Assembly: GCA_034440575.1 (NCBI GenBank)
Contig: JAOTOL010001547.1
Coordinates: 1,042,001 to 1,106,000, forward strand
Direction of reading: 5' to 3'
Length of the DNA: 64,000 bases
DNA from: Imbricaverruca yamaguchii
Lineage: Eukaryota > Arthropoda > Thecostraca > Neoverrucidae
Shown: positions 5,477 to 51,420 of the stretch, in pieces
Layout of the letters: every line of letters begins with the position of its first letter
Numbering within the stretch: the first letter of the stretch is position 1
Notes under the pieces: generated by a model
What the model was told of the DNA's origin: nothing
Database searches by the model: none
What the model saw: the letters and a program-made list of their open reading frames with translations, nothing else
Position numbers and translations under genes: made by a program

Positions 5477-5866
5477 AGACAAGACATAAAGACATAAAGA
5501 CATAAAGACATAAAAGATTAGTGCAACTATGAGCCACAAGGGCCCTTCTTGGTTTGACTCTGTACACTGAACCAGTTGCCCACCAGATATGTCAATCAGC
5601 CCTCACTGTAATAGTGAAAAGCAAGCCCTCTATTCTTATAATGATCGTCTATGCTGTTTTTAAAGATGTTCAACGTGCTACTACTGACAATGTTTTCTGG
5701 CAGCTGGTTCCAGTGTTCTACTACCCTGTTGGTGAAGAAAGTCTGCCTTAACCTTGTTCTGCTGTGGTTAACTTTAATTTTGAATTTATGACCTCTAATT
5801 GCATCATTTCTGTTAATTTCAAAGACTTCCCCAAGATATCCCCTCTCCAGACCATGGACAAAGTTA
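5477..5866 (-). mobile_element. CR1-like LINE 3' end, truncated
   Basis: On the - strand this is closely similar to the LINE end at 38.5-38.9 kb. Both share the stretch encoding RVVEHWNQLPENIVSS, the untranslated segment that follows, and a terminal (GTCTTTAT)n tail, here seen on + as ATAAAGAC repeats at about 5488-5516. Octamer tails and 5' truncation are typical of CR1-clade elements. Similarity to the other copy stops near 5866, so only the last RT-proximal segment and 3' UTR remain. Confidence 0.88.
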
Positions 5867-18682: not shown

Positions 18683-19044
18683 GGGGCAATTGTAACAGTA
18701 GCCATGGTTCCGAAACCCGCTGATGGATGGCGCTGGCGGCAGTACTGGATATGCACAGTCAGCTGTTTCCTTTCCTCACGGGGTTTCACGCCGTTGCGAC
18801 AAGTGAGTCGAGTGCTGTTCACAATTATGTGTTTTTGAGGGTGTGTTGTAAATTTGATGATTTTGTTTAATTATTAGCTCATTCACGTATCTCACTAGAT
18901 ATGGATCTAAGAGTTTGATTGAGCGGAGTGGGGCTAATTAGCCAAAAATGTAGCGCCGTAGCTGCCGCCCACGCTGCCGTGTTTTGCATCAGTTTCGTCT
19001 CTAAGATGGCGCGGCTTGGCGGGGTCAATTGTAACATTTTTGCT

Positions 19045-19077
19045 GGGGTCAATTGTAACAGTGTTACAATTGACCCC
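19045..19077. repeat. Perfect 33-bp palindrome in the pogo 5' region
   Basis: GGGGTCAATTGTAACA, a single central G, then the exact reverse complement. An extra direct copy of the same 16-mer lies at 19021. The word is a variant of the TIR core and sits about 80 bp upstream of the transposase ATG. It could be a subterminal transposase-binding site or autoregulatory operator; that role is inferred. Confidence 0.9.
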
Positions 19078-19156
19078 TATGGCCATACTATTAAGTATGC
19101 ATTTACTACAGAATGTCGTTGGGCGCTGGTCAATGAATGTTTCCGATTTTCAGACG

Positions 19157-21108
19157 ATGCCTCGCTCTCGAGAACGAACTTCTGACCGCGGGACCCGCCT
19201 GGAGACAGCCCAGGAAGCTGTTGCCGCGGTTATGGAAGGCGGGTTGACGGTGAGAAAAGCCTCAGCCCAGTATGGAATGTGTCATGTGACGTTGTCTCGT
19301 TACGTGAAACAGAAGAAAGAAGGAATGGATATCACAGTCGGCTACAACCCGCACAACAAGGTCTTTTCACCAGGCGATGAGAAGATACTCACGGACTATC
19401 TACTCAAATCATCGGAGGCGTTTTTGGTCTGACGCCGATGGAGGTCAGGGTTCTCGCCTACCAGTGCGCGATGTCCCGAGATATGAAAGTTCCCAGTTCC
19501 TGGACGGATCAGAGACGAGCAGGAGTCGACTGGTTCAACTCCTTTCTGAAGCGGAACCCGCAGCTCGCCATTAGGTCACCGCAGGCCACCAGTTTGGCAC
19601 GTGCAACCAGCTTCAATCGTGAAAACGTGAAGAACTTCTTCGATAAGCTGGGGATCGTCCTCGCAAGACACGAACTTGATCCGTCAAAGATATGGGACCT
19701 TGATGAAACTGGCTGTACGACAGTGCAGAAGCCGACGGCAGTGGTGGCTGGGAAAGGCGTGGAACAGGTGGGAGGACTCACCTCGGGAGAGCGGGGACAT
19801 CTCGTTACCATGTGTGCTGCTACTAGCGCAATGGGCAACACTGTGCCACCGATGTTCGTGTTTCCAAGAGTCCGATACCACGAATGGTTTGTTCGTGGTG
19901 GACCGGTGGGTTGTATTGGCACTGCAAACAAGTCTGGTTGGATGACTTCGGAGCACTTCGTGACCTTCATGAAGCACTTCATCCTACATGTGAAGTCGAC
20001 GCCCGAGTCACCGGTGTTGCTGCTGCTCGACAACCACGTGTCCCATCTTAGTGTGGAAGTCCTAGACCTGGCCAAGGACAGCGGAGTAATTATGCTCTCC
20101 TTTCCTCCTCACTGCTCCCACCGCCTCCAGCCCCTGGACAGAAGCGTGTGCGGCCCGTTTAAGAGAAGCATATCTACTCACATGGATGCGTGGATGAGAA
20201 GCAATCCAGGAAAAACTGCCAGCATCTACGACATCCCACAGATCGCTGCGGAGGCCTGGGTATCGGCGTTTACCCCAAAGAACATCCAGAGTGGCTTCCG
20301 GACAACAGGCATCAGTCCGTACAATCCAGACATATTCACCAACGAAGACTTTGCACCAAGCAACGTTACAGACCGACCCAGAACGGAACTGACTGCACTC
20401 TCCGCCAGCCATACATCCGAAGGCGAGACCACAGATGACATAGCACATCCTGCAGATTATGAGCCATCGGGTATCGGACAGGCTGATCCACCGGTGATCG
20501 GACATCCTGGTCCATCGGGAATCGAACACCCTGGTCCGTCGGCGATGGAACAGCCTGGTGCATCGGAGATCGAACAGCCTGGTCCATCGGGAATCCAACA
20601 GCCTGGTCCATCGGAGAGCCAACAGCCTGGTCCATCAGCGATCGAACAGCCTGGTCTATCAGGGATCGCTTCGACACCGCTCACCCCTGAAGACATTCTG
20701 CCTCTGCCCAAGGCAGGCCCAAGGAAAAGCATCAGTACGGGACGGAGGAAGCGAAAGGCTGCAATTCTGACAGATACGCCAGAGAAGAGAGTGATCGAGC
20801 TAGAACAGAGTCGAAAGAAACGCAAACAAGCACCGAAAAAGTTCAACCTCAGCATGGACAAGCACGAAGAGAAGAAGACGAAGAAGGCCGGTGGCAAGAG
20901 GGCTCGGAAGTCCACCCGCAGGACAAGCAGTAGTGATGACGCTGAAGAAGTTTTCTGCCTTGTGTCCGTCGAGAGTTTTAATACCAGTCGATCTAAAGAA
21001 AGGTGGATCCGGTGCGAGATGTGCGCGATGTGGGCCCACGAGGCGTGTACCGCTGTCGAAAAGTATGAGGCGTACATATGTGAAAACTGTGAATCGGACA
21101 CCGAGTAG
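19157..21108 (+). CDS. pogo/Tigger-like DDD transposase with PHD-like C-terminus, one frameshift
   Basis: Cut-and-paste transposase of the element at 18657-21700. It begins MPRSRERTSDRG at 19157 (frame 2) with a Psq-type helix-turn-helix (VRKASAQYGMCHVTLSRYV), then shifts frame at the T-run near 19421 and continues in frame 1 to a stop at 21106-21108. In the second frame (residue 1 = 19438) come a CENP-B-like DNA-binding region (about 1-65) and the DDE_1 catalytic core: WDLDETG (D89), LLLLDNHVSH (D198) and LQPLDRSV (D234), giving DD35D spacing. A proline-rich stretch of PGPSxIEQ octapeptides follows, then a lysine/arginine-rich segment. A PHD-like finger ends the protein (WIRCEMCAMWAHEAC, YICENC), but its first zinc pair reads CLVS instead of CxxC. 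Function is lost unless ribosomes slip at TTTTTG. Confidence 0.92.
20488..20675 (+). repeat. 24-bp in-frame repeat inside the transposase
   Basis: About eight copies of a 24-bp unit such as CCTGGTCCATCGGCGATC, encoding the octapeptide theme PGPSxIEQ in the linker between the catalytic core and the basic C-terminal region. The reading frame is kept throughout. Confidence 0.9.
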
Positions 21109-26429: not shown

Positions 26430-26739
26430 GAGAGGAAGGTGCCTCGTGCCGGCTGTCACCGTCTCCCTGCCGTCGAACACCTGCCCCAGCGTGCTGGTCA
26501 AAGGCTGGAGGGGCAGGCCAACCGTGAGAAACGCCTCGCCCAGGAGCCGTCGGCCCCGCCCCGTCGCGGCCCTCGACCAATGAGCAGGCGCGAGAGGCGT
26601 CCGAGTGGCTGACTGGCTACTGAGGTGGCTGAGATTGTCGCGCTGAGGATCCCCGGCCTAGTTCGCCGGCGAGGCCCACAGACATAGCGTGGCCGGGCCC
26701 GCTCGGCGGCTCCATGTCTCTGAGTCGCGTCTCTGAGTC
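26430..26739 (+). promoter_or_regulatory. CpG-rich region upstream of the T-box start codon
   Basis: A sharp rise in GC and CpG begins near 26395 and continues into exon 1. It is preceded by AT-rich mobile-element sequence. This is the likely promoter and 5' UTR, but no TATA box or initiator could be assigned. Confidence 0.4.
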
Positions 26740-26749
26740 ATGTCTCTGA
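26714..26749 (+). promoter_or_regulatory. Overlapping upstream ORF, 11 codons
   Basis: ATG at 26714 opens a short frame ending TGA at 26747-26749, out of frame with and overlapping the T-box ATG at 26740. Both ATGs lie in three tandem copies of a 13-bp unit (GTCTCTGAGTCGC, GTCTCTGAGTCAT, GTCTCTGAGTCGC) starting at 26716, 26729 and 26742. Such uORFs usually reduce main-ORF translation. Whether it is in the mRNA depends on the transcription start. Confidence 0.6.
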
Positions 26750-26854
26750 GTCGCAGGGCGCGCGCGTTCTCTGTGGCGGCGCTGCTACAGCTGGCTGATG
26801 AGCACCACCAGCAGCGGCACACCGACAGATGTGCCGCGCATGCGGACTCTCCAG
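26740..26854 (+). CDS. TBX15/18/22-like: T-box factor TBX15/18/22-like, exon 1
   Basis: First coding exon of a T-box transcription factor. It starts MSLSRRARAFSVAALL, matching the N-terminal signature of vertebrate TBX22/TBX18/TBX15 (of the form SxRARAFSVEAL). The F-S-V-A-A-L-L core resembles an eh1 Groucho-recruiting motif, and the basic RRAR may help nuclear entry. The exon gives 38 codons plus one base and ends CTCCAG|GTGAGC, a good donor. Phase 1 fits the acceptor TTCATCAG at 27891 exactly, joining as SPG-EEVRP. The start at 26740 is chosen because it begins the conserved motif; the ATG at 26714 is out of frame. Confidence 0.85.
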
Positions 26855-27891: not shown

Positions 27892-28732
27892 GTGAAGAGG
27901 TCCGGCCGCGAACGACTGGGTCGGCGTGCGTTCAGACCAGTGACGTCTCCGCCGCCGGCATATCCGCATCTGACCGAGTCGGCCCCGCCACGCGGCGGGT
28001 GGGTCCGCTCCGGGATGCCGCCGCCTGTAGGTGCCGGCCGGCGGGGTCGGGTCAGGTCAGCGCGCTGCTAGCCGACGGCGGCTGCGTGGCGCGCTGCGCC
28101 GACGCAGCCGCCAGCCGGCCGGCCGACGGCGCAGCGACCGCCCGTCGAGACGAGCTCGCGACCGACGACTGCCCACAGTCGTGGTCACCGCAGCACGGCC
28201 GCGGCGGGTCACGTGCCGGACCGCAGCACGGCCGCGGCGGGTCACGTGACGTGCCGCAGCACGGCCGCGGCGGGTCACGTGCCGGACCGCAGCACGGCCG
28301 CGGCGGGTCACGTGACCGCTGTGACGGCGACACCAGTCGTGGGTCGGACGACCGTGCTGAAGGCGTGCCGGCGGCCGAGACCGCCGCGCGGCCCGGCTCG
28401 CTCCCGGCCGCGTGCGCGTCGCCTGTGTCGTCGCCCGACCGCGGGAGCCGCCTCTTGCTCCCCGCCGAGCCCGACTCGCCCCCGGCTGGACAACGCTCCC
28501 CGCTCCCTGTGGCTGTTGACGGCCACTCGCCGCTCGCCGCCGCGAATGGTCACCAGTCCCCGCCCCCGGGCGGGGGCGGGCGAGAGCCGAGCCCAGGACC
28601 GGGGCTGGCCGCCGCGCAGCGGAAGCACCTCCGTCCAGAAGAGCTGGGCATCACGGCCGAGCTGTGTTCACGCGACCTGTGGCTCGAGTTCTACGAGCAC
28701 GGCACCGAGATGATCATCACCAAGATGGGCAG
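27892..28732 (+). CDS. TBX15/18/22-like: T-box factor TBX15/18/22-like, exon 2
   Basis: An 841-bp GC-rich exon joining exon 1 in phase 1 and ending GGCAG|GTGAGG in phase 2. It encodes a long disordered linker rich in Ala, Arg, Gly, Pro and Ser, including four in-frame 11-residue repeats (QHGRGGSRAGP theme). It then starts the T-box: ELCSRDLWLEFYEHGTEMII to TKMG, about residues 295-318 of the predicted protein. LW.xF..xGTEMIITKxGR is diagnostic of T-box DNA-binding domains. The linker is longer than in typical vertebrate paralogues. A SINE is inserted 90 bp past the donor. Confidence 0.9.
28190..28321 (+). repeat. 33-bp in-frame exonic repeat, four copies
   Basis: Units start at 28190, 28223, 28256 and 28289, each containing GCAGCACGGCCGCGGCGGG followed by TCACGTG. 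They encode QHGRGGSRAGP, QHGRGGSRDVP, QHGRGGSRAGP and QHGRGGSRDRC. The 33-bp length preserves the reading frame. Every unit carries a CACGTG palindrome (E-box core). Confidence 0.95.
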
Positions 28733-35915: not shown

Positions 35916-36032
35916 ACGCATGTTCCCCACGGTGAAGGTGCGGCTGCACGGACTGCTTCCCACCGACTCGTACATCGTCTACCTGGACATGGTGCCCGTG
36001 GACGACAAGCGCTACCGCTACGTCTACCACAG
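35916..36032 (+). CDS. TBX15/18/22-like: T-box factor TBX15/18/22-like, exon 3
   Basis: A 117-bp exon between CCCTCAG and AG|GTGAGC. It completes the split Arg codon and encodes RRMFPTVKVRLHGL, SYIVYLDMVPVDDKRY and RYVYH, ending with two bases of the next Ser codon. RRMFP is the T-box dimer/DNA-contact strand. VDxKRYRYVYHSS is characteristic of TBX15/18/22, whereas TBX20 proteins read AYHRSS. The junction positions agree with what I recall of the introns in vertebrate TBX15/18/22 genes. Confidence 0.96.
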
Positions 36033-36179
36033 GTGAGCGCGCGTGTCCGCCTACACTCGACTGTTGCCATTGACGATGTTGTGATGGAGCAATCATTGTG
36101 CCAACTGGAAGGCTGCCTGATGGCAGCAGCTGCAGCTTGCGCGCATGCTCGCACCAGTACCACAATAATATAGCACCGT

Positions 36180-36825
36180 TACCGCACTAGTACCACACCG
36201 GTACTGCACCGGTACCGCACCGGTACCACACCGGCACCGCACCGGTACCACACCAGTACCGCACCAGTACCGCACCGGTACCGCACCGGTACCGCACCGG
36301 TACCGCACCGGTACCACACCGGCACCGCACCGGTACCACACCAGTACCGCACCAGTACCGCACCGGTACCGCACCAGTACCGCATCAGTACCGCACCAGT
36401 ACCGCACCGGTACCGCACCGGTACCGCTCCAGTACCACACCGGTACCGCACCGGTACCGCACCGGTACCGCACAGATACCGCACAGATGCCGCACCGGTA
36501 CCGCACCAGTACCGCACCGGTACCGCACAGGTACCGCACCGGTACCGCATCAGTACCGCACCAGTACCGCACCGGTACCGCACCGGTACCGCACCAGTAC
36601 CGCACCGGTACCGCACCGGTACCGCACCGGTACCGCACCGGTACCGCACCGGTACCGCACCGGTACCGCACCGGTACTGCACAGATACCGCACAGATACC
36701 GCACCGGTACCGCACCAGTACCGCACCGGTACCGCACCGGTACCGCACCGGTACCGCACCAGTACCGCACAGGTACCGCACCGGTACCGCACCAGTACCG
36801 CACCGGTGCCGCACCGGTACCGCTG
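36180..36825. repeat. 11-bp minisatellite, about 58 copies
   Basis: Unit CCGCACCGGTA with CCGCACCAGTA, CCGCACAGATA and CCACACCGGTA variants, beginning 148 bp after the exon 3 donor. Because 11 is not a multiple of three, the same peptide (VPVRYRCGTGA on -) appears in all frames, producing overlapping ORFs of up to 260 codons. These are not genes. A variant block (ACAGATACCGCACAGAT) recurs near 36475 and 36675. Confidence 0.97.
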
Positions 36826-37749
36826 ATGCTGATCAGTTCGGGTGTCGACCGCATCCTTAAACCCATCTGACGCATTCGGTCAGACTCGTGCCTGGCATTC
36901 GGGGTTTTACATCGGTGGGACTACGGCCAGGGACGCATTGTTGCCGCACAGCTGCGAGGAATTCCAGTCACCATGAGCCCGTCCCTCTCCATACAACCCG
37001 ATAGGGTTAATGGTAAACCTGATGAGAAGTTCAGGAGGGCAGTGAAACAGCTGCCCTTCCATCACCCTGTTCCTGCGCCATCGCGCTCAGGACTTGGCGG
37101 CGCTCACGGTGTCCACGGGACGCTATCTAAGCTGTGGTGTCACGAGCTGTCAGCCCAAAGCCAAGGTGTAGTGAGCATCCAGTCCAAGCCGTGACGTCAT
37201 GAGCACACCACCCAAACCATGGTTTCATGAGTATAGCACCTAAACGATGGCGTCATGCTCATCCCATCCATGCCATCATCTGGTTTCATGAGCGCCCTAT
37301 CCAAACCGTGGTGCCATAAGCTGCTCATATAAGCATGACGGCATTAAATGCCACCCAAAACTACGGTATGGGCGCCAAACAATGATTGTCGTTCCCCCGC
37401 TCAAGAGTCCCAATAAACAACCAACCAAGCGAATGCATCGTGAGTCACTGCCACGTGCATGTCATCACCACGTCAACTCGTGAGGCTTCGTCGACACGAC
37501 CTATGAACGTGACGACAGGTCAGCCAGAAGACGGACACACCGCCAGCCAGCCACGGCCGGTACCTGGCACACAGCCGAGCTCAACACCACACCCACGGAC
37601 TGGGACAGTCACTAGCCAGCTGCCACCACCAGTCGGCGGAGCTGTTCCACACACTGTGTCCCAGAGCAATAGCGCTGATACAGCCACACACAGAGATTCC
37701 CCCAGGATCCATCCCTGACTCGAAGCTATCCAGGCGAGACTACTTCTGC

Positions 37750-38234
37750 CCTCAGCTAGGACTGGCCTGTGCGAAGCTGAGTGTGCCCCCGCTCGAATTG
37801 TACATACACCATGAGACTGGTCTGCCCTCAGCTCGGAGTTGGCGTCGCCGGACCTTTTGTGGCCCCTGGTCAGAGTGTACACCATGAGGCTGGTCCGCCC
37901 TCAGCTCGGAGTGGGCCGTCGCCGGACCGTTTGTGCCTCCTGGTCAGAGTGTGCACCATGCCCTCAGATCGGAGTGTGCGTCACCGGACAGTTTGTGCCC
38001 CTGCTCAGAGTGTACACCATGAGACTAGTTTGCCCTCAGCTCGGTGGGCGTCGCCGGAGCGTTTGTGCCCCCTGCCCTCAGCTCGGAGTGGGCCGTCACC
38101 GGACCGTTTGTGCCCCTGGTCAGGTGTGCCCATGCCCTCAGATCGGAGTGTGTCCGGAATTTGAAAGTGTACACCATGAGACTAGTTTGCCCTCAGCTCG
38201 GAGTGGGGCGTCGCCAGACAGTTTGTGTCTCAGA
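37750..38234 (+). repeat. Minisatellite carrying exon 4 splice acceptor copies, left block
   Basis: About eight units of roughly 40-75 bp with the order CCCTCAGCTCGGAGTGGG, CGTCGCCGGACCG, TTTGTGCCCCTGGTCAG, AGTGTACACCATG. The first part equals the exon 4 3' splice site and its first codons (CCCTCAG|C TCG GAT TGG GCC). Some units are shortened. The block is interrupted at 38235 by a LINE and resumes at 38937. Confidence 0.95.
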
Positions 38235-38936
38235 ACAGACCAAGGAAGCCAGGAAGAAGGCACTGAGAATGTTTGGGGCAATAAATAGGAATGTATCATA
38301 CAGAAGTGAGGAAGTCAACTGAAAGCTTTACTGTGCATATGACATGCCATATTTGGAATACTGCATCCAAGCTTGGTCTCCTAGCTATGAAAAAGATTGT
38401 TGGCTTTTAGAGAGAGTACAAAAGAGGGCTACAAAAATGGTTAATGGCATAAGCAACCTGGCATATGAGGAAAGATTGAATAAATTGAATATGTTTTCAC
38501 TTAGATATAGAATGCTGAGAGGAGATCTCATCGAGGTCTTTAAATTTGTCCATGGTCTGGAGAGGGGATACCTTAGGGAAATGTTTGAATTTAACAGAAA
38601 TGATGCAATTAGAGGTCATAAATTCAAAATTAAAGTTAACCACAGCAGAACAAGGTTAAGGCAGGCTTTCTTCACCAACAGGGTAGTAGAACACTGGAAC
38701 CAGCTGCCAGAAAACATTGTCAGTAGCAGCACGTTGAACATCTTTTAAAACAGCAAAGACGATCATTATAAGAATAGAGGGCTTGCTTTTCCCTATTACA
38801 GTGAGGGCTGATTGACATATTTGGTGGGCAACTGGTTCAGTGTACAGAGTGCAACCAAGAAGGGCGCTTGTGGCTCATAGTTGCACTAATCTTTTATGTC
38901 TTTATGTCTGTATGTCTTTATGTCTCCTGGTCAGAG
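38235..38936 (+). mobile_element. CR1-like LINE 3' end inserted in the minisatellite
   Basis: The C-terminal part of a non-LTR reverse transcriptase polyprotein: KALRMFGAINRNVSYRSEEV, an in-frame TGA (38320-38322), then PYLEYCIQAWSP, LLERVQKRATKMV, RVVEHWNQLPENIV, with a stop at about 38746. A 3' UTR and a TTTATGTC-type octamer tail (about 38895-38926) follow. It is 5' truncated and defective. Minisatellite sequence flanks it on both sides, so it inserted after that array had formed. Confidence 0.93.
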
Positions 38937-39165
38937 TGTACACCATGAGGCTGGTCTGCCCTCAGCTCGGAGTGGGCCGTTGCCGGACCGTTTGTGCCCC
39001 CTGGTCAGAGTGTACACCATGCCCTCAGCTCGGAGTGGGCCGTCGCAGGACCGTTTGTGCCCCCTGGTCAGAGTGTACACCATGAGACTGGTCCGCCCTC
39101 AGCTCGGAGTGGGCCGTTGCCGGACCGTTTGTGCCCCCTGGTCAGAGTGTACACCATGCCCTCAG
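38937..39165 (+). repeat. Minisatellite carrying exon 4 splice acceptor copies, right block
   Basis: Acceptor words CCCTCAG end at 38965, 39028, 39102 and 39165 (the last is the inferred true site), giving spacings of 63, 74 and 63 bp. The 74-bp unit carries an extra AGACTGGTCCG. The stretch from 39103 to 39165 is open and in frame with exon 4. Confidence 0.96.
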
Positions 39166-39328
39166 CTCGGATTGGGCCGTCGCAGGACCTGGCGACACGT
39201 TCAGCTGCCACAACCGGTACGTCCACCCAGACTCCCCAGCTCCGGGGCGGCTCTGGACCTCCCAGGGAATCGTCGCCTTCGACAAGCTCAAGCTGACCAA
39301 CCGGCGGCACTCCTGCACGGCATCTCAG
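39166..39328 (+). CDS. TBX15/18/22-like: T-box factor TBX15/18/22-like, exon 4
   Basis: A 163-bp exon after CCCTCAG. It completes the Ser codon and reads SSDWAVAGPGDTFSCHNR, YVHPDSPAPGRLW, TSQGIVAFDKLKLTN, RRHSCTASQ. It aligns without gaps to the TBX15/18 segment SSKWMVAGNAD...YIHPDSP...SFDKLKLTN. The conserved NELDxxGHI stretch after KLTN is replaced by RRHSCTASQIA. The donor CAG|GTCAGG departs from consensus. Phase 0 at the 3' end fits exon 5. Use of the acceptor at 39102 would add 21 residues (SSEWAVAGPFVPP...) in frame. Confidence 0.95.
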
Positions 39329-39545
39329 GTCAGGGCACAGCTCAGGTCAGGCCATAGCTCAGCTCAGGTCAAGTCACAGCCCTGGTTTGGTTATAGCTCT
39401 GGTCAGGTCACATCACTTGTTAGGTTACAGCTCTGGTCAGGTCATAGTCCTGGTCAGGTCGCACGCCGCCTCCGCTCAGGTCATGTGACAGCCGGGTCAG
39501 GTCGTGCCCCGGCCCAAATCAGGTATCATGCCAACCGGCCAGGTC
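39316..39545 (+). repeat. Tandem CAGGTCAGG-type repeat across the exon 4 donor
   Basis: From the end of exon 4 onward, CTCAGGTCAGG recurs at about 39324 and 39341, then CAGGTCA at irregular spacing of 17-35 bp to about 39545 (at least eight copies, with GCTCTGGT and CACAGC words between). The true donor CAG|GTCAGG is the first member. The last bases of exon 4 (GGCATCTCAG) look like part of the repeat. Confidence 0.85.
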
Positions 39546-40699
39546 AGAGTCAACACAGATAAGACCACTTGAGAATCCAGATCAGGCTACGCGAAGCAAT
39601 AGGTCAAATTCGGCCCAGTCGGGTACGCGACAGCCAGATAAACGCACACGACAGCTCGGCTGGTGCGTCCGACCCCCGCAGGTCAGCCAGGATGGCAAGA
39701 GCGCTAGCTGACCACGTGACTCAGATCACGTGACAGCTACGGCCAGGTCGGTACAATCCAGAGTCCAGGTCACAAGCAGCCTATGCCAGGCCACATTGCA
39801 TCCCAGGTCATGCGACATGGAAAAGAAGATAGATCATAAGTCGGCTCAAATCAGCCTTGTCTGGTTTCGGTTCGCGCGACGCGCTAGTCGACGTACGCTT
39901 GAGGATTGAAAGTAAGCTATGCTAGTATGCTAAACCGACTATGCTAGTAAGCTATGTCGGTTTAGGTCATTCGCCAATCGCAAGGTGATCACCTGATTGA
40001 TTTGTTGTGTGCGAGTGTACCAGTTGTGTACCAGAGTGTACCATTTACGTATCAGAGTGTACCAGTTATGCACCGGAGTGTACTATTTCATAGGCATGCG
40101 AGCGTGACTGACATTGTTTGAACACAACTTGCAGCGCGTACATCTGTCTGCCCCCAATAACTTGATCTTGGAAGTGAACCATCAAAGTGGATATGTTGAT
40201 TATTCTACACCTCTACACCACGCTAAGCTAATTACAACCACCGAAACTTTATTTATTGTGAATGACCGCAGATCACCGCGCGCGATTGGATCGATTTCAA
40301 AGATGGTCCGCAATCGATTTTGGTGGCCACCGCCTGGTGAAGTTCATTGGCGCCCAAACTGAGATACGATGTGCGATCAGCACCAAAAGCAATCGAGACA
40401 AATCCATGTATGATGGAGCGTCGGAGAAATGTTTCACCAGGCCGCAGCTAACCAGATCTAATCCATTGCTTATTTGAGATTAAGGGCGCATCGACTGCGT
40501 CGGTCATGCAGCAATCCATTGCTTAGCTCTACCACATCGCAATTTGTAAATCGTCCCACACATTTTGATGGTTATTGTCTGTGGTTATATGGTTCCCTGA
40601 GTCGTGAATTATCACGACGTCGACGTATGGACTCTCAGCGGGCTTTGCGCCACGCCCTACTGTTGACACGATCGACCTCAACATTACGTACGTTTTCAG
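39546..40699 (+). other. Rest of intron 4
   Basis: Contains more CAGGTCA words to about 39800, and a short array at about 40010-40085 of AGAGTGTACCA(G/T)TTA(C/T)G type (three to four copies of about 27 bp). It ends CGTTTTCAG. No gene seen. Confidence 0.7.
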
Positions 40700-40861
40700 A
40701 TTGCACTGCACTCCATGCACAAGTACCGCCCCCGTGTGCACGTGCAATGGACAGATGACCTTCTGACTCCGGTTGAACAACAGATTGACCTGAAAAGGTC
40801 ACTCACCTTCAGTTTCCCGGAGACGGAGTTCATCACCGTCACTGCCTACCAAAACCAGGAG
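40700..40861 (+). CDS. TBX15/18/22-like: T-box factor TBX15/18/22-like, exon 5
   Basis: A 162-bp, phase-0 exon between CGTTTTCAG and GAG|GTGAGC. It encodes IALHSMHKYRPRVHVQW, a variable loop (TDDLLTPVEQQIDLKRS), then LTFSFPETEFITVTAYQNQE. LHSMHKYxPRVHV and FPETxFxxVTAYQNQ are core T-box strands. LHSMHKYQPRVHV in particular is the TBX15/18 form. This is the clearest exon of the gene. Confidence 0.97.
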
Positions 40862-50115: not shown

Positions 50116-51277
50116 TCTTGTTTTTCACATATAATTAGAGAGTGCCATTCAGGGCCATGTTAAAGACGCTCTCCTTGGCGTGCACAGCAACGATAGTATC
50201 TACGCTCAGGAACGCAACAGGTATGTCTGGGCCGAGAAATGGGACATTTGGTATAAAAATAAACTTCTTCCTGGCACAACCAGGTTATGGAACCAGTTAC
50301 CGGGTGAGGGAAGGGAGCACAGCTGGACAAGAAAATAGTACCTAATATTGTTTGGGGTACTAACCGCACCAAATCTTTATTTCACGGGCACAAAGACCGC
50401 TAACACTTTCCTAAGAAAGCTACGATTAGGCGTGTCGCAGCCAAATACTCACGCATGTGTAAGTACAACAACGAAATATGCCTTACTGTCACTGCGACTA
50501 CCGTAACGAAAGCACAGCTCACTACGCCTGACAATGCTCATCATCAGAGCAACCCGGTCACATGCTTTGGACTGCGTATTTCAAATTATTTCTAACGGCT
50601 TATTCGAACTCGCTATTTTCATCCGTGGCAATGGAATAGCTGGATATATCTACGCGACAGCGGCGGCTATCAAGCACTGTAGTATTGTAACGACAATATT
50701 CCCAACAAGTACTAAAAATGAAACGTTCTTCCTTGATGGAGTTGGGAGTGTTGGCCGTGGCTGCGTCGTATTCTTCGACTGATCCCACTTCCACAGCGGC
50801 CGCAGCCGACCCCATATGGTTAGCTTTGAACTGCATGTTGGTAAACGTTTCAGAGACATAACTGTGTGTGCGCTAATGCACACACTTCTGGAAATGTTTT
50901 GCTTTTGAGTGATATGTAGTTGAAATTGTATTCGCAATATGTTGATGATGGTGATGACCTCTATCTCCATTTTTGTGACACTTCTGCCAGAAAATACCCC
51001 GCTGCACTTGATCATACTTTTGATCTTGTTCCGAGCAAAATTCACTCCATTGTTGAAACGAGCTACACATGAGCTAAGAGACAATGGGAGTAAGTATGAG
51101 GGAGCTCAGGGGACATGCCTCCACTCTCGGAACCTTCACCAATAATCCAATGGCGTCGCATGAGGAAAATGGACTTGGGAGGGAATTTCTTAAATACAAA
51201 TTGCATAAAATTAAACTTTAAAATATAATCTACCTTCACAACCACCCGTAACACGTACTGTGCTTTCAATTCGCCAG

Positions 51278-51420
51278 ATTGCATTCGCCGTGTTCGGACG
51301 ATACGAGCGAGAGCAGCGGTGCACGGCATCTCTCCAAACACGGACGACCAGTGTCGCTACCAGGTGGCAATATCTGGAACTACAGCCTGCCCGTCGCACC
51401 GCATCCATTCTTGTGCATTG
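51278..51420 (+). CDS. TBX15/18/22-like: Probable T-box gene exon 7 (post-T-box region)
   Basis: A 143-bp open segment between a pyrimidine-rich acceptor (CTTTCAATTCGCCAG) and donor GCATTG|GTGAGA. It completes the split codon from exon 6 (AG+A, Arg) and reads LHSPCSDDTSESSGARHL, SKHGRPVSLPGGN, IWNYSLPVAPHPFLCIG. This is a Ser-rich, then aromatic composition plausible for a T-box C-terminal region. Support is phase compatibility, splice sites and composition; no strong homology is recognised. An additional exon before it is possible. Confidence 0.5.

Follow-up and report, generated by a model that had tools for sequence, protein, structure and literature searches.

We found that the 3' splice site and first codons of exon 4 of a T-box gene in the barnacle Imbricaverruca yamaguchii are repeated in tandem in the intron ahead of that exon. 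The window (the whole stretch of 64,000 nucleotides that was analysed) holds twelve CCCTCAG acceptors between positions 37749 and 39165, eleven decoys and the true site, each followed by a copy of the exon start in a varying state of decay. The array is very probably a minisatellite of the type called mirages in amphioxus, in which the edge of exon 4 was duplicated in tandem, the acceptor at 39166 is still used for the most part, and the acceptor at 39103 offers the sole productive leak. The coordinates of all features are collected in Table 1, in which acceptors are named, as in the text, by the first base on their exon side.

Table 1. Features of the exon 4 region, in positions of the window
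Feature	Position	Strand	Remarks
Exon 3	35916..36032	+	Ends DDKRYRYVYH + AG
Marginal first unit, acceptor 37756	37735..37779	+	Approximate limits
Distal block	37795..38226	+	Decoys 37832, 37905, 37968, 38040, 38082, 38142 (weak), 38197
Retrotransposon-like 3' fragment	38226..38925	+	About 700 bp, inside the array; (TTTATGTC)n tail; class assigned by eye
Exon-proximal block	38926..39189	+	Two 137-bp dimers, the second ending within exon 4; 38966, 39029, 39103 and the true site
Exon-side first bases	37756, 37832, 37905, 37968, 38040, 38082, 38142, 38197, 38966, 39029, 39103, 39166		
Candidate productive decoy	39103..39165	+	Potential alternative exon 4 start, +21 codons
True 3' splice site CCCTCAG	39159..39165	+	Last 20 intron bases identical to those of decoy 39029
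Exon 4	39166..39328	+	SSDWAVAGPGDTFSCHNRYVHPDSPAPGRLWTSQGIVAFDKLKLTNRRHSCTASQ, first S split with exon 3; from tblastn of Pollicipes P0001 and Pfam T-box
Donor-side array	39324..39828	+	13 CAGGTC in about 500 bp including the real donor; intron from 39329
Exon 5	40700..40861	+	

The host gene was characterized from its exons. When joined, they matched the Pfam T-box family (PF00907, E=1.6e-66) over residues 7-194 of 200, and the best protein match of this joined query was the TBX22-like protein P0001 from the goose barnacle Pollicipes pollicipes (88%). In tblastn, P0001 aligns with exons 3 to 6, with the end of exon 2 and with a segment at 51276-51419. Within the T-box core, identity was 171/192 to Pollicipes and 166/192 to Amphibalanus amphitrite, whose two protein models, P0121 and P0122, have identical cores (192/192). 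The leading named protein matches are annotated as TBX22, TBX15 and TBX18, and one Amphibalanus model is named TBX1-like; by these annotations, not by a tree, the gene would belong to the TBX15/18/22 class. Since an ancient whole-genome duplication is reported for barnacles, as described in the available part of PMC11331182, orthology to P0001 is likely, not proven; the gene in the window and that of Pollicipes could instead be related through duplication. The gene holds further repeats. A 13-bp tandem repeat at 26714-26754 lies over the likely T-box start codon (26740, MSLSRRARAFSVAALLQL) and also yields a decoy ATG at 26714, whose frame of 11 codons overlaps the real start. A 33-bp repeat of 3.9 copies (28187-28314) gives 11-residue units within the exon 2 open frame, upstream of the T-box, and an 11-bp minisatellite of 59 copies (36173-36823) starts about 140 bp past the exon 3 donor.

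Each unit of the array comprises about 24 bp of exon 4 and about 40-50 bp of intron 3, and so spans the intron/exon boundary of the host gene. The exon-derived part ends at one point in most decoys, after GGACC or its variants. The initial annotation had counted about eleven decoy acceptors before the true one, with last spacings of 63, 74 and 63 bp; eleven were found, nine of them well supported and two weak (37756 and 38142), and recomputing the final acceptor spacings gave the same values. It had also placed CCCTCAG followed by CTCGGAGTGGGCCGTCGC in every unit. The first half of this statement stands, as the heptamer is present in 11/11 decoys (which were picked by the heptamer itself), but the exact CTCGGAGTGGGCCGTCGC 18-mer occurs in only two of the eleven, and nine carry the 20-mer CCCTCAGCTCGGAGTGGGCC with no more than three mismatches. 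At that threshold CCCTCAGCTCGGAGTGGGCC matched ten places in the 64 kb, the nine decoys and the true site, and nowhere else; the number expected from 100 shuffles was 0.00. When the 40 bases around the true acceptor were compared with the upstream DNA, the score was 75, whereas the highest of 200 shuffles reached 27. Over the first 24 exon bases, 19-23 were matched without gaps in 6/11 decoys, and the remaining five had 9-13 matches, partly through indels.

A ten-unit profile with the heptamer masked necessarily matches the ten units from which it was built; support for the decoys was therefore taken from leave-one-out profiles instead. With the heptamer masked, these recovered 9/10 decoys (E 2e-21 to 5.5e-7), and the nine recovered in this way also carry CCCTCAG. 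For 38142, the returned row was the neighbouring unit 38197 and not 38142 itself. Unit 37756 was missed by the ten-unit profile and reached an E of only about 6.4 at the leave-one-out stage, which makes it marginal. The heptamer-masked leave-one-out profiles found no significant unit without the heptamer.

What had been annotated as one array at 37750..39190 is a real array, but one interrupted at 38226-38925 by the retrotransposon-like fragment. An ORF within this insert (38323-38748) resembles the end of a reverse transcriptase by eye, and a Pfam search of the same ORF gave no match at E<=0.001. A relative of the insert lies at 5482-5866 on the minus strand and is 95.8% identical. On the exon side of the insert, the last four units form a pair of 137-bp dimers (74 + 63) that agree at 130/137 positions. 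Tandem arrays are prone to misassembly, and one misassembled mirage is reported in the available text of PMC3087553; an assembly artefact that multiplied a single exon edge is nevertheless extremely unlikely here, given that the units differ pairwise by 1-56%, that the two dimers differ at 7 sites, and that the retrotransposon-like fragment stands between the blocks.

Next, we considered the direction of copying. In the alignment, the SSxWxVAG motif of exon 4 is common to T-box proteins widely, so the array did not create it. P0001 of Pollicipes and both P0121 and P0122 of A. amphitrite have SSEWAVAGPGD. The window exon has the codon GAT (Asp) and reads SSDWAVAG, and Asp at this position was absent from the 141 motif-readable proteins of 232 listed relatives. 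Nine of the eleven decoys have GGAG (Glu) at the site; 37756 has C, 38040 has lost bases, and T is found in 0/11. Because 9/11 decoys keep the Glu of the barnacle relatives and none has Asp, the exon edge seeded the array before the exon's own codon changed from Glu to Asp, an argument that depends on a single base and on two barnacle species besides this one. The earlier proposal that a T-box exon edge was the seed of the array thus gains support from the conserved exon motif, the common break point and the residue of the barnacle relatives in these decoys.

The units also bear on the order of events. Among the units, only decoy 39029 and the true edge carry the GCAGG variant, and the two match at 23/24 exon bases and 20/20 intron bases. 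Since 39029 equals the true edge nearly throughout and the final units form the 137-bp dimers, the latest visible duplication took in the real exon edge. Several units beyond the insertion are more diverged, with differences from the true unit of 35% for 38142 and 28% for 38197, but 37905 differs by 8%. The array would have grown mainly from the exon end, as a tendency and not as a rule, because the distal unit 37905 is close to the true edge and support for the unit tree is weak. We propose that ~40-50 bp from the end of intron 3 and roughly 24 bp from the start of exon 4 were duplicated together in tandem, with the 137-bp dimer that includes the real exon edge as the latest visible event. 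Several distal units would then have decayed, and a retrotransposon would have come to split the array.

Both edges of exon 4 sit in arrays. The exon 4 donor (CTCAG/GTCAGG) begins the second one, and TRF arrays with periods of 17, 22 and 39 start from 39324-39325. The 13 copies of CAGGTC in 39324-39828 compare with a mean of 1.05 and a maximum of 6 in 1000 shuffles; the donor edge scored 29 against its downstream copies, and the largest of 200 shuffles scored 27. Three alternative donors, at +39, +78 and +129 nt, keep the frame and meet no stop. In the same self-similarity test, in which the exon 2, 5 and 7 edges were placed 1-2 nt off, no excess was found at the donors of exons 2, 3, 5 and 6 or at the acceptors of exons 5 and 7 (200 shuffles), and for the acceptors of exons 3 and 6 the upstream comparison was borderline (3/200 and 2/200 shuffles; 20 comparisons in all). 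An exact search with each edge's own splice word gave one additional copy for the exon 5 donor and none for the remaining edges outside exon 4. CCCTCAG itself recurs once, upstream of exon 3, and no CAGGTC-like donor series was found at the other donors of this gene.

Why these edges were hit could be explained by chance: in a minisatellite-rich genome some arrays would cover exon edges, and nothing about splice sites would promote amplification. We give this account about even odds of being right, and it is compatible with a mirage-type origin of the array. Arrays of period >=7 cover 17.2% of the window, and for this one gene in this window no enrichment at gene edges was seen, with 3/12 in arrays (the start codon and the acceptor and donor of exon 4; P=0.33), or 2/11 when splice edges alone are counted (P=0.57). 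Eleven edges are, however, too few for excluding enrichment, both splice-edge overlaps fall on one exon, and the units are copies of the exon edge under either view.

If the acceptor 39103 were used, 63 nt would be added to exon 4, that is, 21 codons in frame without a stop, with SSEWAVAGPFVPPGQSVHHAL ahead of SSDWAVAG. The initial annotation had attributed these 21 in-frame codons to the acceptor at 39102 and had noted that they duplicate a conserved T-box strand. The frame agrees with that description, and so does the predicted structure, in that residues 107-113 (EWAVAGP) of P0001, from Pollicipes, form a strand in the AlphaFold2 model of that protein (block mean pLDDT 87 and 85). Among all acceptors, 39103 and 39166 are the only ones with a stop-free frame to the end of exon 4; the other 10/11 decoys each meet at least one stop. 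The 21-residue insert is absent from the three barnacle protein models P0001, P0121 and P0122.

Acceptors were compared by their pyrimidine counts, as opposed to a splice-site scoring model. Both 39103 and 39166 have 10 pyrimidines in -20..-4, and 39029 has an equal count; a better polypyrimidine tract was rejected on these equal counts as the reason for choice of the true acceptor. Nothing in the last 20 intron bases distinguishes the true acceptor from decoy 39029, so that accurate use of 39166 is an assumption. Since pyrimidine content is equal, we infer that accuracy is most likely kept by the downstream donor and by distance. Most transcripts would most likely splice at 39166, as the exon 4 donor would define the exon and favour the closest acceptor. 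Leakage to 39103 would be the sole productive alternative, and the upstream decoys would give RNA with premature stops. Because the nearest decoy alone is in frame and stop-free, gain or loss of units further upstream, should the array vary in length between individuals, could alter only the amount of unproductive RNA. The copy-number-dependent splicing suggested by the initial annotation is possible and unproven.

Tandem repeats across exon-intron boundaries are known from amphioxus, where such mirages occur in Adh3, in the globins BflGb6 and BflGb9, in PGBD5 and in troponin C. In the available text of the two reports (PMC3087553, PMC3902484), mirages are length-variable and said to leave splicing undisturbed, and unit number changes somatically in Adh3 and differs between alleles in BflGb6. 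The same text describes boundary copies beside the real boundary, AG/GT signals in many units, and both 5' and 3' boundaries as open to such change, all of which resemble the barnacle locus; in BflGb6, the intron 3' end and the start of exon 2 are copied (PMC3087553, PMC3902484). The barnacle array is, by its anatomy, a mirage: its tandem units span a boundary and carry splice signals. It differs in that the host is a barnacle, whereas the cases named in those passages are cephalochordate; in that the core of a DNA-binding domain, the T-box, is where its 63/74-bp units lie; in that both edges of one exon are affected; and in the interruption by a retrotransposon-like fragment. It is the same kind of structure as the mirages in another lineage, that of the best protein match, Pollicipes pollicipes. 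Amphioxus as the host, suggested by the mirage reports, was rejected on this 88% match.

The original paper on the human IFI6 (6-16) minisatellite, which provides multiple splice donors, is reportedly that of Turri et al. 1995. In the accessible part of PMC4526556, this minisatellite has several splice donors, two of its downstream units being reported as used. The likeness is that minisatellite units offer alternative splice sites; as described there, however, the IFI6 units are donors and are used, whereas the main array here consists of acceptors whose use is hypothetical. On the use of decoys, the precedents point both ways, with splicing reportedly undisturbed by the amphioxus mirages and units reportedly used in IFI6. 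The initial annotation had mentioned neither the interrupting retrotransposon, nor the donor-side array, nor these precedents. A further parallel is the 1989 idea of Rogers, as cited in the available text of PMC3087553, that introns are gained when proto-splice sites are tandemly duplicated. There too, DNA with splice signals is repeated in tandem, and decoys might in principle be turned into exons or introns; here, in contrast, no new intron is present, and all decoys lie within an existing one.

It is unlikely that the array is in use, with 39103 giving a regular T-box isoform longer by 21 residues, array length tuning the ratio, and perhaps donor-side extensions of at least 13 codons. Such use would fit the open frame at 39103, the three in-frame, stop-free donor extensions, the equal pyrimidine counts of 39103 and 39166, and the IFI6 repeat units used as donors (in the part of PMC4526556 available). 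It would also fit the conservation of GCCCTCAG, which does not vary among ten aligned decoys and makes up 8 consecutive invariant columns in an alignment of 58, with 15-18 columns invariant overall; column permutation gave P values of 0.0002, 0.00015 and 0.00095 under three alignments, although the permutation ignores the relatedness and common descent of the units and the anchoring of the alignment on the core. The units were first selected by exact CCCTCAG, but this selection does not explain away the invariance, because the heptamer-masked profiles, which are blind to the heptamer, recover 9/10 decoys; nor was any significant unit without the heptamer detected by them. As a hint that the array is used, the invariant GCCCTCAG is suggestive only. 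Against use, the insert would hit a strand of the conserved domain that is confidently modelled (the pLDDT values given above), the three barnacle protein models are without it, and the reported amphioxus mirages splice normally. A stronger form, in which selection keeps the decoy ladder and the donor row as a copy-number dial on the amount of T-box protein, together with an isoform with a duplicated barrel strand, is highly improbable. If it were true, changes in repeat length would make a developmental regulator vary, heritably or somatically.

A mirage-type minisatellite with 39166 mostly used is the preferred reading, and what is new in it is the host and the gene; the kind is known from lancelets and from one human gene. 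In the literature searched, which leaves most subscription journals outside, we found no splice-boundary minisatellite in an arthropod, and within the same open-literature scope no work on barnacle tandem repeats with splice acceptors or introns. The locus extends splice-boundary minisatellites beyond chordates to a crustacean, where a developmental gene carries one in its DNA-binding core. Its units serve as fossils of the exon edge, and spliceosomal choice among acceptors that share 20 intron bases and 23/24 exon bases can be tested there in a natural setting.

Elsewhere in the window, long ORFs at 18962-21108 resemble by eye a Jerky/Tigger-type DDE transposase; a 24-bp repeat occupies 20464-20668. 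A 30-bp array of 25 copies lies at 2182-2934; its unit has the donor-like GGTGAGT and open frames on both strands.
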